This document shows positions 10,929-36,927 of a stretch of 38,090 bases of DNA, one piece after another (position 1 is the stretch's first letter; every line of letters starts with the position of its first letter). The notes below the pieces were generated by a model. That model was not told where the DNA came from. It made no database searches and saw only the letters and a program-made list of their open reading frames with translations. The position numbers were made by a program, and so were the translations under genes. Origin of the DNA: Candidatus Fermentibacterota bacterium. Lineage in GTDB: Bacteria > JAFGKV01. Where the stretch lies: contig JAFGKV010000225.1 of the NCBI GenBank assembly GCA_016928395.1, forward strand, positions 1 through 38,090, written 5' to 3'.

Positions 10929-11003
10929 CGATCCCACCCTGCTTTCCTGATGCTCAGTCGGGGACCGAGTGGGCCAGGGCCATGATTCACAGTGCGTCCC
11001 TCC

Positions 11004-20291: not shown

Positions 20292-20293
20292 AC

Positions 20294-20368: not shown

Positions 20369-20392
20369 CTTGTCTGAGAAGGAGACTGGCGC

Positions 20393-21106
20393 GTGGATGA
20401 TTGGACGCAACGTGATGTGCTGCTCATATTCGACCTCGACGGTACGCTCTTCCAGAGTGAGACCGTCACGGTACCCGCGGTGCGTCAATCCTTCCATGGC
20501 ATTGGCCTGGCTGCCCCGCCGGACACTGCCATTCATGACTTCTTCGGTCGTCCCCATGCTGATTTTCAGGTATGGCTCCGTTCCCTCATACCCTCCGCAC
20601 AGGCAGATACGCTCCTCGCATCGGTCGACCGCCGCGAACTCGAACTCGTGGGTTTAGAGGGGAGGCTCTACCCGGGAGTGCCGGAGATGCTCCTCACCCT
20701 GCGCGCCCGCGTGAACCGAATGGCCATCTGCACCAATGGAGAGCGTGAGTACGTGAATCGCGTCGTCGAAGCGCAGGATCTTGGGCGTTACTTCGATGTG
20801 CTCCGTCACCGTCAAACCGATACCGACACCAAGACCACCATGGTCAAGGAGCTGCTGGCCCGGTTCCGGCCTGAGGCCGCCGTCATGATCGGCGATCGGT
20901 GGGACGATGTGGCGTCGGCTCGCGGCAACGCGATTCTGTCGGTAGGCGCCGGCTACGGCTACGGGGGGACGAAGGAGCTGTTGGAGACTGACGCAATAGT
21001 CGAAACTCCCCACCAGTTGCCCGAGGTGATCGACCGGCTGCTCGGAGGTTCGGCATGGTCCACTACACAGGTATCTACGTCGCACAGGAAGGGAGTGAAT
21101 GGATGA
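20393..21106 (+). CDS. HAD-superfamily hydrolase (phosphoglycolate-phosphatase-like)
   Basis: The 237-residue protein starts at a GTG with AAGGAG eight bases before it. It carries HAD motif I (FDLDGT, nucleophile D14 and general acid D16), motif II (AICTNG), the motif III lysine in TKTTMVK and motif IV (MIGDRWDD). A helical C1 cap lies between motifs I and II, as in phosphoglycolate phosphatases and related enzymes. It probably hydrolyses a small phosphomonoester; the natural substrate is not evident. The last 15 residues (from about GGSAW) have no family counterpart and may extend beyond an ancestral stop. Its stop overlaps the start of the PhzF gene (ATGA), so the two are coupled. Confidence 0.85.
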   Translation: MDDWTQRDVLLIFDLDGTLFQSETVTVPAVRQSFHGIGLAAPPDTAIHDFFGRPHADFQVWLRSLIPSAQADTLLASVDRRELELVGLEGRLYPGVPEMLLTLRARVNRMAICTNGEREYVNRVVEAQDLGRYFDVLRHRQTDTDTKTTMVKELLARFRPEAAVMIGDRWDDVASARGNAILSVGAGYGYGGTKELLETDAIVETPHQLPEVIDRLLGGSAWSTTQVSTSHRKGVNG

Positions 21107-21894
21107 GTTGTAGGATCTTCCAGGTTGATGCATTCACCCGCGAGCCGTTCAAAGGGAATCCCGCGGGCGTCTGTCTGCTCGATGGCCCGCGAGATGATGA
21201 GTTCCTTCAGAATGTCGCCCGCGAGATGAACCTGTCGGAAACCGCCTTCCCTTTGGTAGAGGGAGAAGGTTTCCATCTGCGGTGGTTCACGCCGGCGGTC
21301 GAGGTGGAGCTGTGCGGACACGCCACGCTGGCAACCTCCCATGTCCTGTGGGAGGAAGGAATTGCGCCCCTGGAGGCGCCCATCCGTTACATCACGAAGA
21401 GCGGCGAGCTTCGTGCGACGTCTCGAGGGGGCGTGATCGAGCTGGACTTCCCCGCAAAGCCAGAGCAGGCGGTGGAGGCTCCTGAGAGCCTGATTCGAGC
21501 CATGGGTGTCATGCCGCGCTATGTCGGCCGCAACCAGTTCGACTACCTGTTCCTGCTCGACGACGAGCAGGCCGTGCGCCATGTCGAACCTGACTTCCAC
21601 CTCCTCCGGGGTGCAGGGGCCCGGGGAATCATGGTGACGGCGCCCTCTGACACCCCGGATTTTGATTTCGTCTCGCGCTTCTTCGCCCCGGGTGTCGGCA
21701 TCGATGAAGACCCTGTCACCGGCTCAGCGCATTGCTGCCTCGGCCCCTTCTGGGCGGCCCGCCTCGGCAAGACTGAACTGCGCGCCTACCAGGCATCAGC
21801 CAGAGGTGGTGAGCTTCTCGTCAGGGTTGAGGGAAACCGCGTTATCCTCGCCGGCCATGCCGTGACCGTACTGCGAGGGGAGCTGGTGGTGTAA
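21103..21894 (+). CDS. PhzF-family isomerase/epimerase
   Basis: Start taken as the ATG at 21103, which overlaps the HAD stop (ATGA) and has GAAGGGAGTG seven bases upstream; an earlier in-frame ATG at 21055 lies inside the HAD gene. The 263-residue protein has the PhzF hallmarks: QVDAFT and GNPAGVC near the N terminus, the catalytic glutamate E46 in MNLSETAF, FTPAVEVELCGHAT at about 65-78, and GIDEDPVTGSAHCCLGPFW near the C terminus. The fold is two diaminopimelate-epimerase-like halves and the catalytic glutamate acts as acid/base. The product made here is unknown; PhzF members include many with no link to phenazines. Confidence 0.9.
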   Translation: MSCRIFQVDAFTREPFKGNPAGVCLLDGPRDDEFLQNVAREMNLSETAFPLVEGEGFHLRWFTPAVEVELCGHATLATSHVLWEEGIAPLEAPIRYITKSGELRATSRGGVIELDFPAKPEQAVEAPESLIRAMGVMPRYVGRNQFDYLFLLDDEQAVRHVEPDFHLLRGAGARGIMVTAPSDTPDFDFVSRFFAPGVGIDEDPVTGSAHCCLGPFWAARLGKTELRAYQASARGGELLVRVEGNRVILAGHAVTVLRGELVV

Positions 21895-22259
21895 GACGAG
21901 CGGGCGGCAGTAGCCAGTCGGCAGTCGGCAGTAGGCAGTCGGCAGTCCGGCAGTAGCCAGTAAGCAGTAGGCAGTCGGCAGTCGGCGGTCAGGCCAGCCC
22001 CGCAAGCAGTCAGAAGGAGTCCGAAAGAGCTCGCGCGGAACCACTGCCGCAGAGCAGAGGAGGCGAAGGAGCCCAGACGTCACGACGGGGTGTCTGCCGC
22101 TGCAGACCTTCCCTCTCCTGGGGGAGAGGGTGAGGGTGAGGGCGTGGTTCCGCACCATTGGATGCGGGGATCAGTCGCGATCTGAATGGGCCTTTCCCTT
22201 TGCTCTACGGCGGCCACACCAACTCCCACGGGCGAGCATACTTCACACCAGGAGGTTCC
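21895..22259. repeat. Repeat-bearing intergenic region after the PhzF gene
   Basis: At 21905-21990 a purely repetitive tract is built of GGCAGTA/GGCAGTC-like heptamers (CAGTAGGCAGTCGGCAGTC). At 22111-22130 a perfect 8-base hairpin CCCTCTCC-TGGG-GGAGAGGG is followed by TGAGGGTGAGGG, a repeat type seen in many environmental genomes. No gene is present. Confidence 0.65.
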
Positions 22260-22727
22260 ATGGATCCGTGTGAACATGCAGTGGTGCTGTTTGATAGGGG
22301 ATTCAACTGCGCGGAGTCGGTGCTCAGCGCACTGTGCAGCGCGTCGGGTTGCGAAATCGAACACCTGCGCCGGCTGGCCACCCCCTTTGGTTCGGGCATC
22401 TCCAGGCGGGGAACGGTGTGCGGCTGTCTCTCGGGTGCCGCTATGGCCATCGGCCTGGTGGCGGGTCGTTCTGAGCCCTCTGACGTCGACGGGAAGGATC
22501 GTGCCTACGGCATGGTGGAGAGGCTCATGGAGCTGTTCGGTCGGCAGTTCGACAGCATCGAATGCCGCACTCTGACCGGCCTCGATTTTCACGACCCCGG
22601 GGCAGTAGAGCGCTTCAGAGCGGATGCCCGAGACCGCGTCTGCGTCCCCGCAATCCGGTTCACTGTGGAGCGCGCGCTCGAGGAGTTGCGGGGAGCCGGT
22701 GTCGCGCCGCGGAATCAGGTTGAGTAG
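22260..22727 (+). CDS. C_GCAxxG_C_C-family putative redox protein
   Basis: Start taken as the ATG at 22260, preceded by AGGAGG; an earlier in-frame start would add 34 residues with no similarity. The 155-residue product has the cysteine pattern of this family: C4, the FNCAESVLSALC segment at about 16-27, and GTVCGCLSGAAMAIGL at about 59-74. Family members are small proteins with conserved cysteines thought to bind a metal or serve in redox chemistry; the exact reaction is not established. The C-terminal half (from about residue 90) is helical, with another conserved cysteine in IECRTLTG. No operon partner is evident. Confidence 0.8.
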   Translation: MDPCEHAVVLFDRGFNCAESVLSALCSASGCEIEHLRRLATPFGSGISRRGTVCGCLSGAAMAIGLVAGRSEPSDVDGKDRAYGMVERLMELFGRQFDSIECRTLTGLDFHDPGAVERFRADARDRVCVPAIRFTVERALEELRGAGVAPRNQVE

Positions 22728-22780
22728 ATGTCTCCGGGTCGTCGAGCGAGATTGTCGCTATCCCGGCGAAGACCCCGCCC

Positions 22781-22915
22781 ATAAAGATCCTGGCCCTGGA
22801 ACGAGAGACGGCCGGCACTACGGCCGAGCGGTTCGTCCCGCACCTCAAGGCGGTTGCCCTTCGAGCGTGGGAGCTGCATCAGGCGGGTGTCATCCACGAA
22901 CAGCATCCCGTGCCG
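22781..22915 (+). pseudogene. Fragment of a small muconolactone-isomerase/YciI-like protein
   Basis: Reading + from 22781 gives IKILALERETAGTTAERF, then VPHLKAVALRAWELHQAGVI. This resembles the N terminus of a family of about 95-residue proteins that start MKILALEKE and continue to ...WELYQAGVIRELYFR. The start codon is ATA instead of ATG, and the homology stops at about 22903, just before the repeat array beginning at 22916, so the second half of the gene is missing. The family is assigned only from memory of its sequence pattern. Confidence 0.5.
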
Positions 22916-23210
22916 GTCATCGCGAGGACCCGCGACCGTCAGACGCGGGGACGTGGCGATCTCCTTCTTTGTCATCGCGAGAACCTGCGCCGCCAGGCGC
23001 GGGGACGTGGCGATCTCGGCAGGAGATTGCCGCGCTTCGCTCGCAATGACAGCATCCTGTGCCGGTCATCGCGAGAACCTGCGCCGTCAGGCGCGGGGAC
23101 GTGGCGATCTCCTTCTTTGTCATCGCGAGAACCTGCGCCGTCAGGCGCGGGGACGCGGCGATCTCCCCTGCGACCGGGATTGCTTCCTCCTCCGGCGGAC
23201 TCGCAATGAC
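22916..23210 (+). repeat. Tandem/interrupted GTCATCGCGAG repeats (four ~55-base units)
   Basis: Units start at 22916, 22971, 23065 and 23119. Each begins GTCATCGCGAGRACC, contains a GCGCCG(T/C)CAGGCGCGGGGACG segment, and ends GGCGATCTC. Between the second and third units, and after the fourth, a degraded reverse-orientation form (GAGATTGCCGCGCTTCGC, then TCGCAATGAC) is present. This resembles the GTCATTGCGAGCGAAGC-type dispersed repeats known from many environmental genomes. Confidence 0.8.
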
Positions 23211-23805
23211 ACGCGCACACCTACGGCATCCTTCATGGTATCAGCTATCGCTCGTCTGGCACTATTCTCATATCAGAATAGTGCCCCGGGCGACCAGAGC
23301 CGGTCACCCCTCAACCCAATGCCGTGCCCCTCGTAGGGGAGGACGACCCTCCCGCATCCAACGGTGCGGGACCAAGTGCCCTCCCGACCACATTGATCCT
23401 TGCTCCCTCGCTGCTCTTCCGCGAACTTGGCCTATGAGAAAGAGTGCGGTCTAGGGACGTAGATACAATGTCAAGTTACTTGATCGATCACCAGTTCCCA
23501 CAGGTCTCTCTGGATGGCCCGCCGAGGCCGGATCCGTCGATCAACCGAGGGCCGCTCGACGGACGTTGATTCCGCGGCGACCTCGTCCCCGCCGAAGCCT
23601 CCCTCGAATCCTGTGTGCCTTGAGAGCTGTTCCACACAACAGTCGTTGGGTGGGGTACTGATGGGCAGATCGCGAGCCGGAACTCATCTCGACACACGAT
23701 CTCGACCCTTCGGTCATTCGGCCATCTGGCAACCAGGTGCCGACACGAAAGGCGGGATCACCGCTCTGTCGGAATCGGGGGAGAAATCAGCCCGCGGGTG
23801 CGTGG
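23211..23805. other. Gene-free stretch with hairpins
   Basis: No gene is recognised. A perfect 11-base inverted repeat (GGCACTATTCT, six-base loop, AGAATAGTGCC) sits at 23258-23285, with no T tract after it. Hairpins of the GGGCGACC and GTAGGGG families follow at 23288-23359. Short frames between 23470 and 23800 are not supported by any motif. Confidence 0.5.
23258..23285. repeat. Perfect 11-base inverted repeat (stem-loop)
   Basis: GGCACTATTCT (23258-23268), loop CATATC, AGAATAGTGCC (23275-23285). It is not followed by a poly-T tract, so a rho-independent terminator is unlikely; a protein-binding site or an end of a small element is possible. Confidence 0.75.
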
Positions 23806-24123
23806 CTATCCGGCATGTGCGGCAGCAGTGTGCGGCCCGCGCCATGGTCTGATCTTTTCAAGAGCCGGGGCCAGTGCCTCCTCGACAACCTCAGTTTCGT
23901 ACGCAGCCTGGGCGCGCAACCAGTAGCCTTTCGACAGACCAAAGAACCGGCACAGCCGCAGGTCGGTATCTGCGGTAATCGCCCGTCTACCGGCCACGAT
24001 CTCACTGATCCGCTGGGCGGGCACGCCGATCTCCTTCGCCAGACGGTACTGCGAGAGCCCCATCGGCACGAGAAACTCCTCGCGCAGCAGTTCGCCGGGC
24101 GTGACCGGGCTGAGTCTTGTCAT
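23806..24123 (-). CDS. higA: HigA-family antitoxin (XRE helix-turn-helix)
   Basis: A 105-residue protein from the ATG at 24123; a TTG two codons upstream is less likely because the GAGGTG site would be only two bases away. Residues 1-80 match the HigA antitoxin layout: SPVTPGELLREEFL, the helix-turn-helix LSQYRLAKEIGVPAQRISEI and VAGRRAITADTDLRLCRFFG. The C terminus is alanine-rich. HigA binds its partner toxin and represses the operon. It lies 12 bases after the higB stop; toxin first is typical of higBA. Complete by length. Confidence 0.9.
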   Translation of the reverse strand: MTRLSPVTPGELLREEFLVPMGLSQYRLAKEIGVPAQRISEIVAGRRAITADTDLRLCRFFGLSKGYWLRAQAAYETEVVEEALAPALEKIRPWRGPHTAAAHAG

Positions 24124-24135
24124 AGCCAATTCACC

Positions 24136-24414
24136 TCAATGATAGTCAACGATCTCGACATCCTTCGCGCCTCCTCTCGACCAGCGAAAGCATACGCGAT
24201 ACTGGTCGTTCACGCGGATGCTGTGCTGCCCCGCACGATCACCCTTTAGTGCCTCCAGTCGATTGCCTGGCGGAACGCGAAGGTCATCCAGACACCCAGC
24301 AATCTGAAGTTGCCGCAGCTTCCGGCGGGCGACTGCTTCAATACTGACGAATCGCTTGACTCGCCTGCCTTCCGACAAAGCCTTGGTCTGTGCATCCTTG
24401 AATGATCGGATCAT
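24136..24414 (-). CDS. higB: HigB-family (RelE-like) mRNA interferase toxin
   Basis: A 92-residue protein with the RelE/HigB pattern: MIRSFKDAQTKALSEG at the N terminus, a helical centre (VARRKLRQLQIAG), DLRVPPGNRLEALKGDRAG with the basic residues that contact mRNA on the ribosome, and IRVNDQYRVCFRW before a C-terminal VEIVDYH. An open frame reaches further upstream, but the family starts at this methionine, and a near-consensus promoter ends just before it, so longer starts are unlikely. HigB cleaves mRNA during translation. Together with higA it makes a complete type II module. Confidence 0.92.
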   Translation of the reverse strand: MIRSFKDAQTKALSEGRRVKRFVSIEAVARRKLRQLQIAGCLDDLRVPPGNRLEALKGDRAGQHSIRVNDQYRVCFRWSRGGAKDVEIVDYH

Positions 24415-24420
24415 GAGCAC

Positions 24421-24449
24421 ATAGTAACGCCACGCGTGATTAGTGTCAA
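24421..24449 (-). promoter_or_regulatory. Near-consensus promoter of higBA
   Basis: On the minus strand TTGACA (24449-24444) and TACTAT (24426-24421) are separated by exactly 17 bases. The predicted transcription start, about seven bases after the -10 box, is position 24414, the first base of the higB ATG. No Shine-Dalgarno sequence is present, so the transcript looks leaderless. Confidence 0.75.
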
Positions 24450-24799
24450 GAAAGCCCGTTCCGGATTGCCATGACGGCATGCCGGCCGCACGCATGGATC
24501 GACTCACGGCTATCAGCTTTCGGCTGGTACGTCGGGCGCACCCCACCACGTACCACGTCCATTCCCTTCCAATCGGCCGAGGAGCTTCTTGCCCGTATCC
24601 CGGCTGAGCAGCCTGTCTCTCGCCGCACAGGTGGAAGGTCCTCAGCGATAGTGCGGAGAAGCGTTTCCCATTGACTACTGACTGCCGCGCGCGCCACATT
24701 CGCCCCTCACCCTCCAATGATGGACTCATTCCCGCGGTGTCCTCCCTGCGGTAGGGCGCACGCATTTCGGCATCGCGGGACAACGGGAAGGAGACTTCC
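24450..24799. other. Intergenic stretch between higBA and a secreted-protein gene
   Basis: No gene is seen. A 22-base string at 24497-24518 (starting GATCGACTCACGG, ending TATCAGCT) is identical to one at 28012-28033. A good ribosome-binding site (AAGGAGA) precedes the ATG at 24800. Confidence 0.5.
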
Positions 24800-26701
24800 A
24801 TGCGCGCGCGCTGTCTGGTACTCCTCGGTATGCTTTGCTGTCTTCTCGTCTTCTCGGCCTCTGCCGAGATCCCCCACCTCATCAACTATCAAGGCAAGGT
24901 AAGCGATTCGGGCGGAACCCCGGTGGCTGATGGCAGCTACTCCATGACCTTCTCGATCTACGATGTCGCCAGCGGTGGCACGTCGGCGTGGAGTAGTGGA
25001 GCGGTGAACGTCACCGTGAGCGGGGGTGTGTTCAGCGTGTTGCTGGGTGAGAGCCCGCAGCCTGCCCTGAGTCTGGATTTCTCCGCCGACTACTGGGTAG
25101 AGACCAGCATCGAGGGAGATCTGCAGAGTCCACGCGCCAGACTCGGTTCGGTGGGCTACGCCTACATGGCCAGCGGACTGGTGGCCGGCACCGAGATCGA
25201 AGGATCGGTGGATAGCGGGAACCTTGCGGTGATCAGCGGAACCAATACGTCGACGGAGAGCGCGGCGCGGGGCCTGTACGGCAGTGCTTCCGGTCCCACC
25301 GGAAGAGGCGTGGAAGGCTGGGCCACCTCCTCGACGGGCTACACGTTCGGGGGACGGTTCGAGAGCCAATCGGCGGATGGGCGAGGCGTGCTGGGCCATG
25401 CGTCGGCGACCACAGGCATGACCTACGGTGTACGGGGTACATGCAGTTCGACCGCCGGGACCGCGGTCTGCGGCAGAGCGCTGGCGACCGAGGGGACGAC
25501 GTATGGGGTATACGGAGAGACTGATTCAACCGACGGCTATGCCGGTTATTTCGCGGGCAAGGCACGGGTCACGGGAGACCTGACCGTTGATGGTTCTCTG
25601 AATGCCTCAGGGCTGGGCGACATCACGGCGGTGACCGCGGGGACGGGGCTGACCGGCGGGGGCACCAGCGGCGCGGTAACGCTGAACGTGGCAGTGCCCT
25701 TGTCGTTGAATGGGTCAAACGTCAACGCCATCGTGGCGGGGACGAACAGCGGTGCAGGGGCGGGGATCTCCGGAGTGCAGACCGCCACCACGGGCGAGCA
25801 CTATGGGGTCTATGGGCAATCGAACTCAGCGGCGGGATACGCGGGCTATTTCGCGGGCAATGCGCGGGTCACGGGGAACATGACGGTCGATGGCACCCTG
25901 AGCGCGCCTGGCGTGGGTGACATCACGGCAGTGACTGCCGGGACGGGACTCACCGGTGGAGGCACGAGCGGCGCGGTAACGCTGAACGTGGCAGTGCCCT
26001 TGTCGCTCACGGGATCGGTCAACGACGCCATTGTTGAGGGAAGCAATGCTTCGACGGGATCGGCATCCTATGGCCTTTTGGGGAGAAGTACCGCCGCATC
26101 AGGTGTGACCTGCGGGGTCTGTGGCACCAGCGCGTCGACCGTCGGCGTGGGCGTCTTCGGCGCAGCGACCGCCTCCACCGGCCCAACCTGGGGAGTGTAC
26201 GGTCGATCGTTCTCTCCTTCCGGCTACGGTGTGTACTACACAGGCGGTCTTGCGGGCACGGGCACCAAGAGCTGCGTAGTGAAGACGTCGCAGGGGCCGA
26301 CGCTCATGTACTGCCAGGAGAGCCCGGAGAACTGGTTCGAGGACTTCGGGGAGGGGCAACTCGTGGACGGGCACTGCCATGTCGAGCTGGATCCGCTGTT
26401 TCTGGAGACTGTGACGATCGATGCGGCGAATCCCATGAAGGTTTTTGTGCAGCTGGAAGATGAGGAGAGTGCGGGGCTCAAGATCCGCAGGGGCTTCACC
26501 GGCTTTGATGTTGAGCACGGCACGAGCAAGACTACCTTCTGGTACAGAGTAGTGGCCAAGCGTAGGGGTTTCGAACGGAAGCGGCTGGATTACTGCAAGG
26601 CCGCGGAGACTGACTCCTATCTCTATCCTGAGCTTCGGGAGAAAGAACTCCGTGACATGGAGGAGGAACTGGATCGAATAGATACCAAGGGAACCCACTA
26701 G
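24800..26701 (+). CDS. Secreted repeat protein (trimeric-fibre-like)
   Basis: A 633-residue protein with a signal peptide (1-23, ending SASAE) and a domain at about 24-120 opening with IPHLINYQGKVSDSGGTPVA, a start typical of exported proteins of uncultured FCB-type bacteria. Residues 140-490 consist of short repeats such as GVYGxTxSxxGYAGYFAG and the unit DITAVTAGTGLTGGGTSG (twice), like those in phage tail fibres and bacterial adhesin stalks. The two copies at 25501-25710 and 25801-26010 lie exactly 300 bases (100 residues) apart and share a long identical run. The last 140 residues have a non-repetitive domain with a helical, charged C terminus (RDMEEELDRIDTKGTH). There is no S74-type peptidase motif that I can see. 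No Ig-like sorting domain is present. Confidence 0.78.
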   Translation: MRARCLVLLGMLCCLLVFSASAEIPHLINYQGKVSDSGGTPVADGSYSMTFSIYDVASGGTSAWSSGAVNVTVSGGVFSVLLGESPQPALSLDFSADYWVETSIEGDLQSPRARLGSVGYAYMASGLVAGTEIEGSVDSGNLAVISGTNTSTESAARGLYGSASGPTGRGVEGWATSSTGYTFGGRFESQSADGRGVLGHASATTGMTYGVRGTCSSTAGTAVCGRALATEGTTYGVYGETDSTDGYAGYFAGKARVTGDLTVDGSLNASGLGDITAVTAGTGLTGGGTSGAVTLNVAVPLSLNGSNVNAIVAGTNSGAGAGISGVQTATTGEHYGVYGQSNSAAGYAGYFAGNARVTGNMTVDGTLSAPGVGDITAVTAGTGLTGGGTSGAVTLNVAVPLSLTGSVNDAIVEGSNASTGSASYGLLGRSTAASGVTCGVCGTSASTVGVGVFGAATASTGPTWGVYGRSFSPSGYGVYYTGGLAGTGTKSCVVKTSQGPTLMYCQESPENWFEDFGEGQLVDGHCHVELDPLFLETVTIDAANPMKVFVQLEDEESAGLKIRRGFTGFDVEHGTSKTTFWYRVVAKRRGFERKRLDYCKAAETDSYLYPELREKELRDMEEELDRIDTKGTH

Positions 26702-27033
26702 GGTCAGGCCCCCAGCATCCGGTGGTGCTGGACCACGCCCAGCATCCAACGGTTAGCGGCGTGGGGTATGATCCGTTGGTGGTCTTGGCAATCCGCCGCC
26801 TGTGGGTGCTGGACCAAGCTTTGACATGTGACAAATCTGCCATATGGTGCGAGCACACGGAACTATGCAAACCCAGGGCTTTCGTGCTCCTACCAGGCTC
26901 TCCGGACAGGTCGTAGGAGCCCCGGCGATGATGCGGTCACCAGGGGGTGACCCATCACCGAGGCGGCAGTCTTCCGTCGGCAGTAGGCAATCAGGCAGCG
27001 GAGACAGCAGGAAGCACGACATCCGAGAGACTG
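26702..27033. repeat. Repeat-rich intergenic region left of the MazEF-like pair
   Basis: Copies of the TCCAGCACC element (minus orientation) lie at 26710-26756 and 26807-26820. They are followed at 26816-26920 by a longer repeat containing TTTGACATGTGACAAATCTG and CAGGCTCTCCGGACAGG, also found in diverged form at 27903-28000. At 26965-27008 there is a GGCAGTAGGCA-type heptamer tract. No gene. Confidence 0.65.
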
Positions 27034-27372
27034 TCATCTGCCGATGATCTCATTCAGGCCGTCCACCAGGTGATCCAACTCTTCGGGAGTGATGCGTCCG
27101 ATTCGCTCGCCCAGGCGGTCAACCGATAAGGTGCGGATCTGGCTGATCTTCACCCATGACCGCTTCGGCATGCACGCGATATCCAGCTCTCGCGTCAGGG
27201 GGAATCCTGCGCGTTGCGGCTGACTGGTGATGGCCATTGCGATCACTGTGCCGGACCGCTCGTTGAAGACATCGTGGCTCAGCACGAGCACCGGCCTCAC
27301 ACCAGCCTGCTCACGTCCCCTGACTGGATTCAGATCAGCCCAGCGTATCTCACCCCTCAGTATGGGGGCCAT
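27034..27372 (-). CDS. mazF: MazF/PemK-family mRNA interferase toxin
   Basis: The 112-residue protein has the MazF/PemK pattern: [19 protein letters not shown] at residues 6-24, then [14 protein letters not shown] with the conserved arginine, the core [14 protein letters not shown] and the conserved [18 protein letters not shown] toward the C terminus. It should cleave single-stranded RNA at short sequence motifs. It overlaps the upstream antitoxin by 16 bases, so toxin synthesis is coupled. Length is normal and no key residue is missing. The specific subfamily (MazF versus PemK) is a guess. Confidence 0.92.
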
Positions 27373-27599
27373 TGGCCGATCTCCTCACCCATCCCTTCTT
27401 CAGCCAATGCCTGCTCAAAGGCGGGGTCGAGCTTCGAGCATTCCGAGGCTAATCGGCTTCGCTTCATCCGATCCAGCTTCTCCTGGACTGCCTGCTGGAT
27501 TGCCCTGCTCCGGTTGGGAAACACAGCCTCACGAACAAGCCTGTCGAGTTCAGTCAGTGTAGTCTCCTCGATCGTGACGGCGACCTTGGCGGTAGCCAT
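27357..27599 (-). CDS. Ribbon-helix-helix antitoxin of the MazF-like toxin
   Basis: An 80-residue protein with a strand and helix of the ribbon-helix-helix fold at residues 1-45 ([18 protein letters not shown], then [17 protein letters not shown]), followed by an acidic C-terminal tail ([17 protein letters not shown]) that probably wraps the toxin. It has the sequence style of CopG-type antitoxins paired with MazF, not of the AbrB-fold MazE. The ribosome-binding site AAGGAGG (27605-27611 region) precedes the ATG at 27599. Autoregulation at the palindromic AT-rich element just upstream is likely. Confidence 0.82.
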
Positions 27600-27623
27600 T
27601 GAATCCTCCTTGGTGAAAGTCAG

Positions 27624-27656
27624 TATGACGATATATCATACCACGAGGCTTGTCAA
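27624..27656 (-). promoter_or_regulatory. Promoter and operator-like palindrome of the MazF-like module
   Basis: On the minus strand, TTGACA (27656-27651) is followed by an AT-rich block with an inverted repeat TATGA...TCATA (27640-27624). A -10 box lies within this block (TATGAT or TATCGT, both imperfect). The palindrome between promoter and ribosome-binding site fits an RHH-repressor operator. Confidence 0.5.
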
Positions 27657-27689
27657 GCACGTCACACGTGGTGTCACCACTGGTTTCAT

Positions 27690-27890
27690 AGTGGACAGCA
27701 GCGGTAACAGTTTCGCGGAATCCGGAGGGAGTCAGGAGGAGTCGAAGGCGGGGATAGGGCAGGGTCGTAGAGGGCATGGTGCGGAGTGGAGTGGCCATGG
27801 AGGAGGAGGGTTGTGAAGAGCTGGATGGGGTCGCTGTGTTGGCGTTTGGCGGTGGTGAGGAGGGTGAGATTGGCGGCCAAGGCCTGAGTG
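27690..27890 (-). pseudogene. Possible decayed transposase C-terminal fragment (IS66-like)
   Basis: On the minus strand the frame reads LTQALAANLTLLTTAKRQHS then DPIQLFTTLLLHG, a pattern that recalls the C-terminal end of IS66-type transposases (TLLATCRRHEVDPQLYL...). It has no start, no upstream domain and no terminal inverted repeats, so if real it is a relic. This rests on a weak resemblance only. Confidence 0.3.
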
Positions 27891-27902
27891 AGCGGTGCGG
27901 GG

Positions 27903-28000
27903 GCAGGCCTTTACATGTGACGAATCTGATGTGTGGTGCGAGGCGGTGACAGTATGTGAGATAAGGACTTTTGGGCTCCCGGCGGGCTCTACGGACAGGC
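27903..28000 (+). repeat. Second, diverged copy of the GACATGTGACAAATCTG repeat
   Basis: CCTTTACATGTGACGAATCT, then TGTGTGGTGCGAG and GGGCTCTACGGACAGGC aligns with 26816-26920 in the same orientation. The two copies flank the MazF-like TA module. Confidence 0.65.
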
Positions 28001-28462
28001 GGGCGAAGTCGGATCGACTCACGGCTATCAGCTATCAGCTAGCAGCTATCGGCTGAGGGCTGGCATCAGGGTGAATCCCAACACTTACCGCCCCCGCCCG
28101 TACGAACCAGCCGAGGAGCTAGTGAAACGGGGACTAGGGTCAAGTCCTGCTTCTTGATGTGTAGGCGAGGGAGTCTACGTGGCGCGCGGCACGCTGGAGA
28201 GACCGCACCTTCATGAGAGAATCAGAGAACAGGTCACAGAATACGCAGAAGTATAGGCCTCTTCGGGCCCTGAAGGGCAACAGAGTCACCCAAGTCTCCC
28301 ACTCTCCCGCCCACCTCCCCGAGTGATTCCATGAGGTGCCGCCGTCGCAGGCATAGTCGCACGGCGCAAAGTCGTCTCATGCTGGAGGTCTCGCGCTCGA
28401 ATCCAGTCCGATGGTCCCTCCGCTGCGTGAACGGGCAACCGCACCTGTGTTCCTTATGTCGT

Positions 28463-28492
28463 GCTTGGTCCTGCACCGCTGGATGCTGGGGC
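28463..28492 (+). repeat. TCCAGCACC-family element
   Basis: GCTTGGTCCTGCACCGCTGG followed by ATGCTGGGGC matches the core of the structured element at 20212-20291 with one mismatch over 20 bases. Confidence 0.7.
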
Positions 28493-28930
28493 TTCGGGCT
28501 TCGGTTTTCCCGCGAAGCGGTCCTCTTGACGATCCAACAACTCACCCGTTCGTTCGTGTTGTCCTGTCTCGACACTCATCTTAACCTGGGGGCAGAGATG
28601 GACGCGAGCGGATCTCAGGCACATTCGTGGCAGTTGATCACACGTCCGTCGGCGCGGAGGGTTCCCACTCGATTCAGGGCGTTCACACCCCGCAACCCAA
28701 TACCTGAACTGAACCTCTCCTCGGCTGTCCCGGTGTCTTCAGATCTTCCGCTCTCGGACACAGAATCCGGGGGTCTGTGCGTGGGTGGCCGTCGGGCTCA
28801 GGCCTGGTCCGATCATGGTGTGTGCAGCCGTTCTCTGACCTCCAGAGCCCTGGGCTGTGGGGTCAGGTGTCAGGAGAGGCGTCGAAGCTGCTCAGCAGTC
28901 CGCACCAGGCAATAGGCAGTGGGACCCCGG

Positions 28931-28960
28931 CCCCAGCATCCAACGATGCTCGACCAACGG
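28931..28960 (-). repeat. TCCAGCACC-family element, inverted
   Basis: CCCCAGCATCCAACGATGCT then CGACCAACGG is the reverse complement of a TTGGTC(C/G)AGCA(C/T)CG(C/T)TGGATGCTGGGG core. Confidence 0.65.
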
Positions 28961-29201
28961 CGAACTGCGAGAGGGACGATCTCGGCAGAAGCCGCTTTCC
29001 GAGTGCGGCCACTGAGGGATCTGCCAAAGCGTGACTTCGAGGTGCTATGTGCCGGCTCTCTGACGAGCTGCATAACAGGCTGGCTTGCGCGGCCGGATTG
29101 CCGTGAGTACCCTCAAGAAGATCTTTAAAAGAACTCTTGCGGAATTTCATCCATGGTGTAGTATGGTCCCGTCAGCGATCAAACAGAGGAGGACAGCGAT
29201 C

Positions 29202-30551
29202 TTGGTTCCGAAGACTGACTGCGATCCGCGTGGCTGCTCAGCCGGATCAGGACTCGAACGCGAGGACCTTCCCCGTTTCGGCGGTCTCGATGGCCCAGTA
29301 CGCGCGGGATCCATTGCCGATCTGGGCCGCCGGATCGCGAAGGTTGCCGACGCGCTGCTAGGATCCCTGCCTCAGGTGCTCCAGTCGGCCGCGGGAAGCA
29401 GCACACGGCCATCGCGGCTTGTGCGCGAGCTTTCCCTTGACAAGTCGCTGGCCAGCCGCCTGGTCCGCAGCCTCCGCGCAGAATCCCCGCTGCAGCTTGC
29501 GCACCTCGCTCCATCCCCCATCGGTCTACGGATCGTTCTCGATGCCGCTGAGTCCAGGGGTGTAGACGCAACGCTCATCACCCGCGCCCGGGGCGCGGTG
29601 AGCGAGTTCGAGAATCTCCTGGAGGACATGCCCGGCGGGCGAAGTAGTCTTGATGCGCTCCTCTCCACCGCCGTCCCGGAAGTAAAGGAACGAACCGAGC
29701 TGAGCGCCAAGCAGACCGTCTATCGGGCGATGAAGCAGCTTCTGGGACTGCACTGCGAGACGAACACCACCGCGCTCATCCTGCAGCCGTCAGACTCAGA
29801 TCCGCGGTTCGCCGACGCCATCGATCTCCAGCAACGGCTGGGAATCTGCCACCTGCGGCCTCACACGCCAGTGGCGCTCCACTCCGCCACCTACGGGACC
29901 GAGGGAGGCGGAGAAGGCCCGCGAATGGAGACCATCCAGGGCGCCGTCCCGCAAAGGGGGGTGGAAACTTTCCTGCTTCCTGAGTTCTGCACCCAGCCTC
30001 TCCCGGCGATGTGCATGTACCACGAGGGTCCCCACACCATTCTCGCCCTCGACGAACGCAAGGTGCGGCTTCACTCGCCCATCACCATCACCACCGGGTT
30101 CATCGTGCGCAATGGGTTTCTGCGCCACGCGCAACCTGACGTGTGGGAGGAGTGGCGCTGCTACCTCCTGGCCTATCCGTCCAGAATGATGGTGCGTGAT
30201 CTGTACATTCGGGATGACCTCTACGTCGGATCGATGCCAGAGGTCCGGCTGGAGTTTCCCCTGCCCCCCGGCGCCAAGAGGATTCACTCCAAGGATCTTC
30301 CCACACGCCTGACGCAACTGGACCTGTCCGCCCCGGTGCAGCAGCTCGGGCGCGGCCTGTTCCAGGCCGCCATCGCGGGTGTTCCCAGGCACGCCCGGAT
30401 TCTTGCCTACGCCTTCGAGCAGGCGGGGTGGGACCCCGCTCGCTTTCGCGGGTATCGGTGTCGGATCCCCTATCCCGTTCCGATGATCTCGACGGGATGG
30501 TGGATTCCTCTGCCGCAAGAGCCCCGCCGCTCCACGCGGGCGGGCCCATGA
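29202..30551 (+). CDS. Protein of unknown function (N-terminal helical, possibly HTH)
   Basis: The frame is open from 29085, but the best start is a TTG at 29202, which has AGAGGAGGA eight bases before it, giving 449 residues. No named domain is recognised. Residues about 25-150 (SIADLGRRIAKVADALLG, PSRLVRELSLDKSLASRLVR) are helical and the second stretch looks like a helix-turn-helix recognition segment. Residues 150-449 look alpha/beta (TALILQPSDSDPRF, GVETFLLPEF, GSMPEVRLEFPLPP). The protein has no signal peptide or membrane helix and is presumably cytoplasmic. Similar proteins appear in planctomycetes and other uncultured bacteria as hypotheticals, from memory. It is flanked by repeats and no partner gene is close, which leaves the role open. 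Confidence 0.7.
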   Translation: MVPKTDCDPRGCSAGSGLEREDLPRFGGLDGPVRAGSIADLGRRIAKVADALLGSLPQVLQSAAGSSTRPSRLVRELSLDKSLASRLVRSLRAESPLQLAHLAPSPIGLRIVLDAAESRGVDATLITRARGAVSEFENLLEDMPGGRSSLDALLSTAVPEVKERTELSAKQTVYRAMKQLLGLHCETNTTALILQPSDSDPRFADAIDLQQRLGICHLRPHTPVALHSATYGTEGGGEGPRMETIQGAVPQRGVETFLLPEFCTQPLPAMCMYHEGPHTILALDERKVRLHSPITITTGFIVRNGFLRHAQPDVWEEWRCYLLAYPSRMMVRDLYIRDDLYVGSMPEVRLEFPLPPGAKRIHSKDLPTRLTQLDLSAPVQQLGRGLFQAAIAGVPRHARILAYAFEQAGWDPARFRGYRCRIPYPVPMISTGWWIPLPQEPRRSTRAGP

Positions 30552-30584
30552 GGGGAGCGCGGCTCACGGTGCGCCCCGTTTCAT
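30552..30584 (+). terminator. Weak terminator-like hairpin after the unknown gene
   Basis: GGGGAGCGC (30552-30560) can pair with GCGCCCC (30571-30577) around a 10-base loop, followed by GTTTC. The T tract is short, so its role as a terminator is doubtful. Confidence 0.3.
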
Positions 30585-30686
30585 GGTTATGGAGTCACTG
30601 AGTCGCGTGAGATCGTCCGGAGATAATGATCGCCGGGCTGGAGATAGAAGCGATCGGGTTCAACCATCTCTCAGGAGGTAGTGGCA

Positions 30687-32408
30687 ATGAAACGCGTCAC
30701 CGGAATCTGTTCAATCGGGCTGATCGTCCTGCTCGCGGCCGGGGTCAATCCCGCGGCCGCCCAGTGGCCTGATGATCCGGCGGTCAATCTCGCGATCGCC
30801 GACAATGGCTCGGGCGATCAGTCGGTGCCCAAGGTCGCCACCGAACAGGGCGGGGGCTGCTATGTCGGTTGGTATGACAACTCCCGTACGGGGAACTACG
30901 ACGTGTACCTGCAGCGGCTGGACGAGACCGGCACGGAGATGTGGCCCCACAACGGGATCTGCATCAGCAATCACCCGCAGAACAGCTGGCTCACCGATTG
31001 GGACCTGATCGCCGATTCCCAGGGCAACTGTATCCTGGCCTTCAACGACATCCGCGATGGGGCTGATTGGGACATCTTCGTCTACAAGATCGATTCAGAC
31101 GGGAACCAGCTCTGGGGCTCTGACGGGCAGGCGGTCTCAGCGGGCGATGCCCTCGATGAGGTGACTCCCTCCCTGGCCGAGGCCTCCGACGGAGACATCG
31201 TGGTCGCCTGGTGCCGGATGGAGGCGCCGGGAGCCATCAGAATGCAGCGTCTCGCGCCTGACGGCACGTGGCGTTTTCCCACCGGACCAATCTCGGTGGT
31301 CGTCGGCTCGGGCACCGCAGTCCCGGCGTTCCCGGACGTCATCCCCTCCCTCAACGGGGACGTGATCGTCTCCTACGTCCGCGACATCAGCTCCTACGCC
31401 AGCCCGCGGCACTTCCTGGCTCAGCGATTCTCCCCCGCGGGTGCGGCCGTCTGGGCGTCGACCGTGGGCATCATGGACGATACCTCCCTGCCCATGGGGT
31501 ATCAGCCCACCATCCAACCGGACGGTTTCGGTGGCTTGGTCACTGCGTGGCACCGCAGCCCTGGTTCGTATTTCAGCTCCCTGGTTCAACATGTCGATGC
31601 CCAGGGAGTCGAGCTCTGGGCCCATAACGGCATCCTCGTGTCCACCCAGGGCGCGCAGCACATCATTGATCCTGCGTACTGCTATGACCCCGCCGAAAGC
31701 CTGCTCTACGTGTTCTGGAACCAGCGCAACGCCAACCAGACCGCCTGGGGGATCTACGGGCAGAAGATGACCTCCGCTGGGGCGCGGGCGTGGACTGACC
31801 TAGGCCTGATGGTGCTCCCGGTCAACACCACCTACAAGTCGTTCCCTCGAGTGCTCCAATGCGGTTCCGACGCGATCCTATTCGTAGCCGAAGGGTCCTC
31901 GGTTGCGGCGCAACTCATCGGTCGGCGGATCACTCCGGCCGGATCCGATGCATGGCCGGCGCCAGTCACGGTCTCTTCCTACCCAAGTTCGAAGAGCCGG
32001 TTGCCGGTGACCATCAACGGGTCGGGCATGAGCGTGATCATCTGGGAGGATGAGCGCAGCGGAAATGCGGATGTCTATGGACAGAATCTCAATGCCGATG
32101 GGACGCTTGGCGTTGAGTCAACACTCCCTGCGCCGGTGATCACCAGCATCACTGCGGTTGGGGGCACGGTATATATCGTATGGAATCCTGTTCCCGGCGC
32201 ACTCTCGTACCAGATGCAGTCCTCGGTGAACCCCTATGCTGCCTTTGCGACCGACGAGACCGGAGTATTCGCCGATACGACCTGGTCGGCGCTTCCGAAT
32301 GGCGAGACGCGGTTCTACCGTGTGAGTGCGGTGGCGGATCCCGAGGTGAGCGATCCCTCCAACGTAGTCGGCTACGAGCAATTCACGGTGGAGGACGGAC
32401 CGAACTAG
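30687..32408 (+). CDS. Secreted repeat protein with C-terminal fibronectin type III domain
   Basis: Start taken as the ATG at 30687, eight bases after AGGAGG; a GTG two codons earlier is also in frame. The 573-residue product has a signal peptide (1-24, ending PAAAQ). Residues 30-470 hold repeats of about 50 residues with the recurring theme of variable strand, then 'DGT...W..NGI.VS' or 'DSQGNCILAFNDIRDGADWD' (as in bacterial surface beta-propellers). Residues about 470-573 form an FnIII-like domain (PAPVITSITAVGGTVYIVW, then GETRFYRVSAV). The C terminus has no Ig-like sorting domain. Likely a secreted or surface-bound protein of unknown ligand. Confidence 0.75.
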   Translation: MKRVTGICSIGLIVLLAAGVNPAAAQWPDDPAVNLAIADNGSGDQSVPKVATEQGGGCYVGWYDNSRTGNYDVYLQRLDETGTEMWPHNGICISNHPQNSWLTDWDLIADSQGNCILAFNDIRDGADWDIFVYKIDSDGNQLWGSDGQAVSAGDALDEVTPSLAEASDGDIVVAWCRMEAPGAIRMQRLAPDGTWRFPTGPISVVVGSGTAVPAFPDVIPSLNGDVIVSYVRDISSYASPRHFLAQRFSPAGAAVWASTVGIMDDTSLPMGYQPTIQPDGFGGLVTAWHRSPGSYFSSLVQHVDAQGVELWAHNGILVSTQGAQHIIDPAYCYDPAESLLYVFWNQRNANQTAWGIYGQKMTSAGARAWTDLGLMVLPVNTTYKSFPRVLQCGSDAILFVAEGSSVAAQLIGRRITPAGSDAWPAPVTVSSYPSSKSRLPVTINGSGMSVIIWEDERSGNADVYGQNLNADGTLGVESTLPAPVITSITAVGGTVYIVWNPVPGALSYQMQSSVNPYAAFATDETGVFADTTWSALPNGETRFYRVSAVADPEVSDPSNVVGYEQFTVEDGPN

Positions 32409-32991: not shown

Positions 32992-35900
32992 TCATCCCGG
33001 CGATCCCGATACTCGCTCCCACTCGCGCAAGAGCTCCCGATGAAGGGGCACTTTCTCAAGATAGGAGCGTTCCAGGTCGGTTCCTGAGAGGGTGTTCGCA
33101 CGCGCTCGAACCAGACCGACGGCTTGTTCCAGTAGCCCTTTAGCCCGTGGGTCGCCAACGGTGTTCAGCACTTTGCAGCACTCAAATCGGATTGAGAGTA
33201 CATCGGTCTCACCGGGGACACTCTTGGACGCGAGTTGACTCAGGGCCATCTCGGCGTGGCTCAGCGCCCCGGGGAAGTCACCCAGGGAGCACAGCGTCAC
33301 AGCGAGACCAGCGCGGATCCCCACACACTGAGACTCAAGGTCAGGCGTCGAGGCGCCTTCGAGTGCCTGTCCAAACGTCGCCGCTGCCTCCTCCAGTCGG
33401 CCCATCGCGAGTTTGGCGTGCCCCAGTTCTTGCAGCGCCAGGATCCGCTCGACAGGAAGCTCGATGCTTTCGGCGGCCTGGAGGGCTCGCCGACTGAGCT
33501 GCTCGGCCTGGTCAAGGTCAGCCGTGTTCATCGCAGCTCGTGCCAGCGACCGATATATGCTGGGGACGTTGCGCCGGAACCCGCTGGTGCGGCCCAGCGT
33601 GAGGGCCTCCTCCAGGAATGCCCCTCCCTCCTCGTATCTGCCGCACGTGATGGTCAAATCCCCAAGATTGGTCAAGGCAATACCGACACCTCGATCATCG
33701 CCCATGTGTCGATACAGCTCCACTGCGTTTCGGGCGCACGCCAAGGCAGCGCCCAAATCCCCAATCGCTTGGTTGACCACCATGAGATTGGAGACCGCCG
33801 CTGCTTCACCCTGACGGTGGCCGATCTCACGGCTGATCGTCAGGGAGCATTCGAACCGGTCCTTGGCACTCGTGAAATCTCCCCGCTGAAACGCAACCCC
33901 ACCCAGCATCTTGAGGGCGTTGGCTTCGCCGTGCCGCTCGCGGAGCTCTCGCTTGATGCGAAGGGCCTCTTCAAGCCATGCCTCTGCCTGGTCATAGCTG
34001 CCATTGTCGAGTGCGCACATGCCCACATTGAGCAGTGCCCCGCCCTCCCCACGGCGATCCCCGATCTCCCGGAACGTCTCCAGCGCCTGCACGAGCAAAT
34101 CGTTAGCACTGCTCGAGTCGCCCTGCGCCCGGGCACTTAGGGCGATGTTCGAAAGAAGGCCGCCCTCCATCCGCCCATCTGCCCTACGCCTCGCAATAGC
34201 GAGCGCGCGGGTTGACAAATCGATCGATTCACCGGCCCGACCGCGATCCCATGCAAGAAGCCCCAGACTCATGAGTATTCTCGCTTTCGCGTCCTCGGCC
34301 TTGTCCTGAGAGACCGACGGAACCTGCCCTGGAATACCGTTCTCACGTGACACCCATCCGCTCATGTTGCGCTCGACAGCGTCAAGCGCATCTCGCATGT
34401 GCTCCTCTGCCTCGTCATAGCGAGCCAGGAGCATGAGGCACCGACCCCAATGCAGAAGCCCGTCGGCTTGCTCCAGCGGATCCCCGGCCGTGCGGGCGTG
34501 CTCGAGTGCGACGCGGGCTGCGGCAACACCGCCCGCATAGTCGCCGGTGGCCTGAGAGTAGTCGGCCCTCCGATTAGCAGTCACTGCCAGCATGCGATCA
34601 TCTGATAGGGCAGTCGCCACCGTCTCCATTTCCACGAGGTCGGAAAGCTGGGCGTCGCGGGCACCTAAGAGATTGCGGGCTCTTTCCCGCGCCAGAAGAA
34701 TCTCGAAACGTCGTGCGGGGTCATTGGGAGAGAGGATATCGAGTGCTCGGCAGAAGAACACCACAGCCTCCGCATTCGCGAACCGAGCAATAGCCGATCG
34801 TCCCGCAGCAACGAAGCGATCAATGGCCTCCTCAGTCCTCCCGGCCAGAAGCAGGTGTTCGGCAACAATGGCAGCATACTCTTCCTCCCTATCGCCACAC
34901 CGCGCTGCAAGCCACTCCGCAGCTCGTGCGTGATAGCCGGGTCTCTCTCGCTTCAATACGCTTTCGTAGGCAACATCATGCAACAGGGCATGCTTGAAGA
35001 TGTACTGGGATGTCTCGGAAAAAGACGAGGGGTGCTGCTCGAACACCAGAAGTCTACCGCAGAGACTCCCGATGGCCTGTTCCAGAGATGCACACGACCC
35101 ATCGTCTCGCGGACTCACCAGAAACGAAATGGCATCACTCCAGAACACCCGACCAATGACCGCGGCACACTGGAGGATTCGTCGCTCGAGGGGTGTCAGC
35201 GCGTCGACCCGAGCCTGGAGAATGCCTATCAGGGTGGTCGGCACTCGCTCCAAGTCCTTGCATTGGACCATTGTGTCCCAGCCGGCGTCGCTTCGCCTGA
35301 GCCCACCACCTTCCATGAGCATTCGTACCAGTTCTTCGAGAAAGAGGGGATTGCCTTCAGCTCTCTCCGCAATCATATCGATCAGATACGAGGGGGCTTC
35401 CTCGGGTTCTTGCAGGAGCCCCTTCAAGAGCTGACGACTTCCTTCATCCGAGAGCGGCGCCAGCTCAACAATCGCCTGAGGATCGCCGTCCTCTCCCCAC
35501 GAGGGCCGATGCTCGAACAGACTCGGCCTGGCGGTGCTCACGATAAACACGGCGCCTCTGGCGGTCGCCATCACTCGCTCGACAAAAGACAGCGAACTCT
35601 CATCTGCCCAATGGAGGTCCTCGAGCAGGACTATTACCGGCTGCCGTCTCGCTTCCTCCGTGATGAACAGGCTCACGTCGCGGGTCGCCCGATCCCAGAT
35701 CTCCCGGGGATCGGAGGCCTGGCGGAGAGGAGAGGCTTCGTCACGGCCGAAGCCCAAGAGCTGCGCGATGAGCGCGACTCGTGCCGTGTACTCCCCCTCG
35801 TGTCCAAGCATCGATGACACCCCATGCGCGACTTTCTCCTGGGCGATGCGGCGGCTATCGCTCTCCCGAATGCCGAAACGGGACACCAGCAGATCGCGGA

Positions 35901-36927
35901 TGAGACCGTAGGGAGTGTGCATCGTGCGAAGCATCGCACGACCTCTGAACAAGGAATAAGCATCCGGATGCAGCTTGAGGGACGTATCGAACTCCTTGAT
36001 AAGGCGGGACTTCCCCACACCGGCATCTCCAACGACGGTAACGGCCTGCGGTCGTCCATTACGGATAGTTGAGTCGAGGGCGTGCTTCAGATACTGGAGC
36101 TCCTTGTCCCTTCCGATCATGGGTGGCATGATGTTGGTAAATCCCCTGTCAGAGCGCCAGAAGGCTTTCTCCCTGGTGCCAAGTACCAGATATCCCGGGA
36201 TCTCCTGTTCTTTGCCTTTGAGTGACAGCGAACCGGCAGGAGCCGCACTGAACAGATCCTCTACCTGACGGTACGTGTCCTGCGAGATCAGGATCTCGCC
36301 GACTGGACACATCTGCTGCAGGCGACTGGCGGTATTGACCGTGTCTCCGAACACCGAATGCCCCTCGATTCCCCCGTCGACGGCGGCTGATACCACCACC
36401 GGACCGGTGGTGATGCCGACGCGCATGGCAAGTGATACCCCATGGGACTGGCGCAGCTGCTCATTGAGCGAGATCAGCGTGTTCCGCATGGCCAAGGCCG
36501 CCATGATTGCGCGCTCAGGATCATCTTCGCGAGCGATTGGCACGCCGAACACCGCCATGACCGCATCGCCAATGAACTTCTCGACCACCCCGCCCTGGCA
36601 TGCAATGGCCTCCTGCCACCGCGAGAAGTAGGCGCCCATCACCGCGCTGACATCCTCCGGATCCCTGCCTTCGGCCAGCGAGGTGAACCCTTCCACGTCC
36701 GCGAAAAGCACGGTGACCTGCTTGCGCTGTTCCTCGATCCCCGATCCCTCGAACGACTTCAGTCGCTTCCTCAGGCCCGCCAGGGCCGCGCCAACTGCCG
36801 CATCACCCAACGTGTGGCGCTGCTGCTCCAAGGCATCCATCGCCTGCCTGATCTGCTCTCGTTCGTTCACCGGTTCCCTCACGGCCGCAGCTACCGGGGT
36901 GTGCGCGATGGCATACTGAGCCTGCAA
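32992..36927 (-). CDS. Class III cyclase / AAA ATPase / TPR regulator
   Basis: A 1311-residue protein. Residues about 65-250 form a class III adenylyl/guanylyl cyclase domain with metal-binding D77 (VTVLFADVEGFTSL) and D121 (EKFIGDAVMAVFG), substrate residue K117, D195 (VFGDTVNTASRL) and N198/R202, all present, so it should be active. Residues about 265-600 are an AAA_16-type ATPase with Walker A GDAGVGKS (300-307) and an ATPase-like helical bundle beyond. From about residue 690 to 1290 there are many TPR units (as in SLGLLAWDRGRAGESIDLST and AQGDSSSANDLLVQALETF). There is no membrane segment. The layout is that of cytoplasmic cyclase-ATPase-TPR signalling proteins; the input is unknown. The start at 36927 is the most upstream ATG-type codon and is not otherwise supported. 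Confidence 0.9.
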   Translation of the reverse strand: MQAQYAIAHTPVAAAVREPVNEREQIRQAMDALEQQRHTLGDAAVGAALAGLRKRLKSFEGSGIEEQRKQVTVLFADVEGFTSLAEGRDPEDVSAVMGAYFSRWQEAIACQGGVVEKFIGDAVMAVFGVPIAREDDPERAIMAALAMRNTLISLNEQLRQSHGVSLAMRVGITTGPVVVSAAVDGGIEGHSVFGDTVNTASRLQQMCPVGEILISQDTYRQVEDLFSAAPAGSLSLKGKEQEIPGYLVLGTREKAFWRSDRGFTNIMPPMIGRDKELQYLKHALDSTIRNGRPQAVTVVGDAGVGKSRLIKEFDTSLKLHPDAYSLFRGRAMLRTMHTPYGLIRDLLVSRFGIRESDSRRIAQEKVAHGVSSMLGHEGEYTARVALIAQLLGFGRDEASPLRQASDPREIWDRATRDVSLFITEEARRQPVIVLLEDLHWADESSLSFVERVMATARGAVFIVSTARPSLFEHRPSWGEDGDPQAIVELAPLSDEGSRQLLKGLLQEPEEAPSYLIDMIAERAEGNPLFLEELVRMLMEGGGLRRSDAGWDTMVQCKDLERVPTTLIGILQARVDALTPLERRILQCAAVIGRVFWSDAISFLVSPRDDGSCASLEQAIGSLCGRLLVFEQHPSSFSETSQYIFKHALLHDVAYESVLKRERPGYHARAAEWLAARCGDREEEYAAIVAEHLLLAGRTEEAIDRFVAAGRSAIARFANAEAVVFFCRALDILSPNDPARRFEILLARERARNLLGARDAQLSDLVEMETVATALSDDRMLAVTANRRADYSQATGDYAGGVAAARVALEHARTAGDPLEQADGLLHWGRCLMLLARYDEAEEHMRDALDAVERNMSGWVSRENGIPGQVPSVSQDKAEDAKARILMSLGLLAWDRGRAGESIDLSTRALAIARRRADGRMEGGLLSNIALSARAQGDSSSANDLLVQALETFREIGDRRGEGGALLNVGMCALDNGSYDQAEAWLEEALRIKRELRERHGEANALKMLGGVAFQRGDFTSAKDRFECSLTISREIGHRQGEAAAVSNLMVVNQAIGDLGAALACARNAVELYRHMGDDRGVGIALTNLGDLTITCGRYEEGGAFLEEALTLGRTSGFRRNVPSIYRSLARAAMNTADLDQAEQLSRRALQAAESIELPVERILALQELGHAKLAMGRLEEAAATFGQALEGASTPDLESQCVGIRAGLAVTLCSLGDFPGALSHAEMALSQLASKSVPGETDVLSIRFECCKVLNTVGDPRAKGLLEQAVGLVRARANTLSGTDLERSYLEKVPLHRELLREWERVSGSPG

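Follow-up and report, generated by a model that had tools for sequence, protein, structure and literature searches.

The closest described systems touch the locus analysed here on three sides. IclR and MarR regulators resemble the family described below in their N-terminal helix-turn-helix (HTH) region, which is predicted in our proteins and gives weak matches, and in the palindromes upstream of their own gene; they differ in that the matches of our family all fall below the curated cut-off, in that its predicted N-terminal domain has no wing strands, and in that its C-terminal domain is a predicted beta fold like the N domain of M1 aminopeptidases, the IclR effector domain not being found. 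The N-terminal domains of M1 aminopeptidases and of ribophorin I (Ost1) resemble the predicted fold of residues about 170-440 of our protein at 5-9% identity. M1 aminopeptidases have a zinc-binding HExxH catalytic domain, whereas our protein has no catalytic domain and carries the M1-like part joined to an N-terminal helical domain. Proteins of the HAF-repeat (TIGR02913) and PEP-CTERM types, finally, are frequent neighbours and presumed targets of the family, and not relatives of the regulator. Within the whole stretch of 38,090 nucleotides that was analysed (hereafter the window), the gene at 29202-30551 probably encodes a one-component transcription regulator: an HTH dimer would bind a palindrome upstream and control its own gene and, in many relatives, adjacent genes for secreted proteins, with an all-beta domain as sensor. 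The features on which this reading draws are the following.

29122..29132, + strand: candidate operator, palindrome TCTTT-A-AAAGA; the only TCTYYNRRAGA match in the 38,090 nt
29137..29164, + strand: weak promoter-like pair, TTGCGG (29137-29142), 16 nt, TAGTAT (29159-29164); 7/12 matches
29186..29192, + strand: ribosome-binding site GAGGAGG, read in the sequence ahead of TTG 29202
29202..30551, + strand: putative regulator gene, 449 aa, TTG start; homologues align
29409..29474, + strand: predicted helix-turn-helix, residues 70-91; model helices 70-77 and 81-91, weak HTH_IclR matches in relatives
within 29409..29474, + strand: predicted recognition helix LDKSLASRLVR, from the model
29748..30515, + strand: predicted all-beta C-terminal domain, residues 183-438, M1-aminopeptidase-N-domain-like by structure comparison of the model
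30687..32408, + strand: secreted repeat protein gene, possible target; signal-like N terminus MKRVTGICSIGLIVLLAAGVNPAAAQ by eye

The frame of 449 codons at 29202-30551 (+) is open throughout and ends in a TGA stop. The TTG start with a strong ribosome-binding site that the first-pass annotation had chosen is borne out by GAGGAGG at 29186-29192. An alternative upstream TTG at 29085 would lengthen the frame; the start at 29202 is preferred because the palindrome would fall within the added stretch and because alignments of homologues to the window protein begin only at about residue 37-68. The gene is present in a single copy in its own genome, and no copy was found in two further genomes of the same phylum. 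Four other genomes among the 386 searched hold homologues of 24-37% identity over 373-406 residues (G339, G327 with two copies, G105 and G242), so that the gene is conserved; a weak match of 72 residues in G260 (E 0.007) was dropped.

Several other features of the window were recorded in passing. Two copies of GTCGCGCCCCGCGTGGGCGCGTGGATT, 65 nt apart, lie at the contig edge (1-97), the second with a diverged end; they look like the tail end of a CRISPR array. The repeats mentioned at first pass are probably the inverted elements that lie between genes at 20246-28957, around CCAGCATCC...TGGACCAA (pairs I1 and I2). The minus strand encodes secreted proteins with FlgD-Ig C-terminal domains, one of them with BNR repeats (5970-12020), and, at 32992-36927, a protein of 1311 residues that combines TPRs with an AAA ATPase domain and a nucleotide cyclase domain of class III. 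A 254-nt repeat occurs at 5971-6224 and 8524-8777, the copies being 85% identical.

The protein had been described as unrecognised and without any known domain, and it indeed matches no family in five libraries (Pfam, NCBIfam, PADLOC, PHROGs and PDB sequences), nor did a PDB profile search with the whole family give a match. Full-length homologues of 21-37% identity nevertheless occur in other phyla, including Burkholderiales and Planctomycetota. Profile searches added G386 and a fragment in G387, which with G339 make three of the five genomes of that phylum, and two copies in G412, which with G327 make two of 47 genomes. Three further candidates were dropped as chance or partial matches: G387 (an end fragment), G320 (E 1e-3, the frame SelB-like by eye) and G832 (E 7e-4). 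A scan of named genomes reduced 37 pattern matches to 13 loci, in an unclassified NIOZ bacterium, Ideonella, Pelomonas, a Vitreoscilla MAG, other Burkholderiales and two Planctomycetota; L113 is the same locus as L036 and was therefore excluded from counts. When whole groups were sampled, 37 of 392 Planctomycetota genomes gave matches (up to four per genome, where four candidates per genome were scored), against two of 399 in the order of Ideonella, one being the query genome itself and the other match weak. Planctomycetota thus carry the family fairly often, whereas its other members are scattered. Among the matches listed from an open-access paper library there was no description of such regulators, and this family of bacterial gene switches is apparently undescribed so far.

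The first-pass annotation had also proposed a two-part layout, of which one half stands. In the full-length model (pLDDT 81.4), behind a low-confidence N terminus (residues 1-36), residues 35-181 form eight helices, as expected of the helical N-terminal part; the label alpha/beta for the C-terminal half is wrong, since residues 183-436 are nearly all strand, the exceptions being a 12-residue helix at 397-408 and a turn at 254-257. Modelled alone, the N domain reached a pLDDT of 95.5 and again placed helices 70-77 and 81-91 (window numbering) at the spacing of a helix-turn-helix. The evidence for an HTH thus consists of two rightly spaced helices in a high-confidence model, yet without a clear structural match: structural searches with the N domain found no clear fold match, which shows nothing on its newness, and its PDB profile matches were unconvincing (E 0.1 or worse). 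HTH_IclR (PF09339) matched weakly in 6 of 21 members and MarR_2 (PF12802) in four of 21. When members were examined singly, HTH_IclR appeared in five of ten, every match below the cut-off; the best relative scores were 18.1 against the Pfam gathering score of 22 bits for HTH_IclR and 15.7 against 27 for MarR_2, and neither the window protein nor any of the ten members had an HTH domain above gathering score. Six full-length members gave no Pfam match at E up to 1, and no IclR effector domain was found.

For the C-terminal domain, VIA comparison of residues about 170-440 gave Z 11.6 to Ost1 (7oci_A; rmsd 4.1, 189 aligned) and about 9.3-9.6 to the N-terminal domains of M1 aminopeptidases, where the Z background is usually 7-8 and the likeness (Z up to 11.6) is without sequence support. 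Foldseek likewise ranked M1 aminopeptidases first, with a best E of 1.2e-3 and none at 0.001 or better, and returned nothing at E 0.001 from viral structures. Such likeness to M1 and Ost1 domains by itself indicates no function; the window protein has no peptidase match in Pfam, and its HEGPH string is not conserved in aligned relatives. The profile and structure searches suggested at first pass matched no well-described family and gave an M1-N-domain-like fold at the C terminus.

The candidate operator lies 80 nt ahead of the regulator start. Its pattern, TCTYYNRRAGA, was widened from the Burkholderiales site (in whose operons the palindrome TTCTC-3-GAGAA adjoins the promoter) after reading 230 nt upstream of 21 loci. 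Across 22 loci (324,704 nt) it has 16 matches, against a first-order Markov expectation of 2.6 in all (range 0-8) and a single match, not upstream, for the reversed pattern. All but one of the 16 lie no more than 320 nt upstream of a family operon, which makes 14 of 21 loci positive; the operon starts were set by us, that of L024 after its site was seen. Positive are seven source loci (L025-L028, L030, L033 and L034) together with the window, L010, L024, L031, L032, L036 (where a second site follows at 16 nt) and L038; when the pattern was written, no site had gone unread except those of L024 and L031, and later L115. This last locus, which has the T variant found in the window (ATTCTTTCAAAGAAT), is the only one of 29 held-out Planctomycetota loci (L114-L142) with the pattern upstream, L142 having a match elsewhere; in L009 a degenerate palindrome can be seen by eye. 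The promoter-like pair beside the window palindrome is weak: random positions score at least 7/12 in 9.8% of cases and 8 in 1.7%, and a stricter consensus scan of 28900-30800 found no promoter. At seven loci including the window (pairs scoring at least 7/12) the -35-like hexamer starts exactly +10 from the palindrome centre, against +7 in L036 and +11 in L032; L024 has TTGACA-17-TACACT, and five loci have no recognisable promoter. To judge by this placement, a dimer seated just upstream of the -35 element would suit an activator or a repressor.

Genome-wide counts were made for WTCTCYNRGAGAW, which has 44 sites in 12 genomes (0-10 per genome, against 0-4 for the reversed control); in seven of the 12, one site stands at the family operon. 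Among the 32 sites inspected, 22 are inside called genes and one belongs to the L033 operon, while four of the nine other intergenic sites precede, by 104-199 nt, a gene whose product begins signal-like, a hint at a wider regulon that is suggestive only. The window's own genome has ten such sites (control 4), and none of the four inspected is at the regulator gene, whose site is the T variant. Separately, a TTCTCTGGGAGAA site was observed in G434 (L061:1501-1513), followed after about 60 nt by a gene which reads by eye as cyclic-nucleotide-binding. 

Inspection of neighbours in homologous loci, also suggested at first pass, revealed a conserved setting of secreted-protein genes. In 12 of 22 loci the family gene is immediately preceded, on its own strand, by a HAF-type gene (a remnant in L029), as scored with a profile built from six seeds that are all among its 12 positives. 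Six of seven HAF-type neighbours compared with NCBIfam match the HAF repeat (TIGR02913), two of them just below the cut-off; the neighbour in L024 has no such match, but clusters by BLAST with the other HAF-type neighbours, and that of L032 carries a PEP-CTERM signal. TIGR02913 matches occur in only six of 14 member genomes and not in the window's own genome. Secreted proteins of about 250 residues are encoded at L024:5638-6393, L009:7272-8027 (-) and L008:4267-4986 (-); in L024 and L009 they head the family operon, and the L008 upstream neighbour has a similar C-terminal end, W..IKALYR, so that W..IKALY(R) may be a tail motif. Home-made, unvalidated gene calls and a signal-peptide rule of the same kind were applied to 68 Planctomycetota loci. 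Of the upstream neighbours, 34 of 45 that diverge from the family gene and 2 of 6 on its strand have a signal-like N terminus; downstream, the figures are 10 of 21 for the same strand and 5 of 19 for convergent genes (37 further neighbours had their start cut off, and eight places had no neighbour). Nine Planctomycetota neighbours, among the matches listed, have a PEP-CTERM-like tail by eye; of ten compared with NCBIfam, three give PEP-CTERM-type matches that stay under the cut-off, and in one a dockerin domain exceeds it.

Whether this setting extends to the window bears on the first alternative, namely that the window protein regulates its own gene only and that the downstream secreted gene is unrelated. 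The extended window site, TCTTTAAAAGAACTCTTG, is the sole exact match of TCTYYNRRAGAACTCTTG in its genome, and the gene at 30687-32408 has no TCTYYNRRAGA site of its own, both of which favour such a restricted role; against it, the downstream gene follows the regulator after 135 nt in the same orientation, its product is a secreted repeat protein (with weak, below-cut-off beta-propeller matches), and relatives are linked to secreted genes. We regard own-gene control alone as a real possibility, although the less likely one.

A regulatory role draws evidence from the relation between recognition helix and palindrome. Members with a DKS(L/I)AS[RK] helix have TCTYYNRRAGA upstream in 15 of 20 cases, and those with [DN]KV[LF]xSR have GTTTC-3-GAAAC in 8 of 8 (8 of 9 under a looser rule that counts L149, whose helix reads NRVIASR and which has no site). 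GTTTC arms recur with spacing 1 in six of seven HRKLxWQ members and with spacing 2 in all three DKALAWR members, which are 79-91% identical. Among 90 members at 89 loci, neither TCTYYNRRAGA nor GTTTC-3-GAAAC was found in any member outside its own class, and after dereplication at 70% identity (79 members) the own site remained in 11 of 16 DKS and 8 of 8 KV members. These counts refer to upstream windows of 400 nt, or 1,500-2,600 nt, set by us, for the 12 loci with a HAF neighbour; in the wider windows the backward control of TCTYYNRRAGA had one match, and elsewhere than upstream there were two matches for TCTYYNRRAGA and none for GTTTC-3-GAAAC. The GTTTC sites are post hoc, since they were noticed after the held-out loci had proved mostly without TCTYYNRRAGA. 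Counted over 68 Planctomycetota loci, all 18 matches of GTTTC-n-GAAAC (n 1-3) fall in the 20,207 nt of upstream sequence and none in the remaining 222,570 nt; spacings 0 and 4-6 and reversed-arm controls gave none. A further 39 loci (L143-L181) contained one positive (L165) and one miss (L146) of the HRKLxWQ class, but none of the strict KV type. On a FastTree tree rooted at its midpoint the helix classes form clades (support 0.90-1.0), that of DKS including L008, which has no site, so the match of helix and palindrome is partly shared descent, and the Fisher values of 3e-13 and 1e-11 for the association ignore kinship. The palindromes are nevertheless kept at a median protein identity of 34% (DKS) and 51% (KV), and on the simplest reading of these sequences the palindrome is recognised by the helix. 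Further palindromes, each common to two or three loci, may belong to other helix classes (ATTTC-2-GAAAT, TTCCC-2-GGGAA and GTTCT-1-AGAAC, in the upstream regions of L168, L171, L131, L147, L164, L179 and L181).

The same evidence weighs on a second alternative, in which the palindromes are read by some other regulator and the family protein is a co-transcribed passenger, for instance a chaperone or processing factor for secreted proteins. In its favour, a gene for a secreted protein often precedes the family gene, an M1-like beta domain could bind peptides and the HTH match is weak; yet palindromes also stand ahead of family genes without a HAF neighbour (the window, L010, L031, L036 and L038), and their sequence and spacing track the family's own recognition helix, so that we consider a passenger role unlikely. 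That the protein belongs to a defence or toxin-antitoxin system, a role floated at first pass, is highly improbable and finds no support: a PemK/MazF-type toxin gene does lie about 1.8 kb upstream (27034-27372) and the family is patchily distributed, but the window protein matched no PADLOC family with the threshold at E 10, and neither it nor the protein of L026 had a relative in phage and plasmid records or in two scans of viral contigs.

The regulatory role, which had been named beside defence as a possibility, is now the best-supported reading, given the helix-palindrome match and the sites upstream of family genes. Counting against a regulator are the weak HTH match, the absence of a site from five of 20 DKS-type members, the weak window promoter and near-matches of the extended window site in G002, a genome without a homologue (19 with at most two mismatches, the control having 9; a single exact one among the 19 falls within a coding frame). 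What can be read directly in the loci is the family, its palindromes and their position, their match with helix type and the secreted neighbours; DNA binding itself, dimerisation, the sign of regulation, a ligand and control of the window's downstream gene are inferred. In the proposed mechanism, the N-terminal helix-turn-helix would bind TCTTT-A-AAAGA as a dimer just upstream of its own gene, and the regulator bound at this promoter would control its own transcription; in many relatives its control may extend to neighbouring genes whose secreted products are beta-rich or of surface type. A ligand or partner is probably sensed by the all-beta C-terminal domain with its M1-N-domain-like fold. 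A more speculative extension, which we hold only tentatively, is a code in which DKS pairs with TTCTC/3, DKV with GTTTC/3, DKA with GTTTC/2 and HRK with GTTTC/1, within a new regulator family whose M1-N-type cytoplasmic sensor tunes surface-protein genes, perhaps by sensing peptides or unexported chains of the secreted neighbour.

The novel aspect is a probably autoregulating, putative helix-turn-helix regulator with an unusual effector domain. What was an orphan protein can now be tested as a regulator family for which operators are predicted and likely targets and candidate specificity residues are at hand. An architecture of HTH plus beta domain, without family in the libraries searched, is linked to the putative control of secreted proteins of the HAF-repeat and PEP-CTERM types. 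The way in which half-site spacing follows helix class would offer a ready test of the co-evolution of recognition helix and operator.
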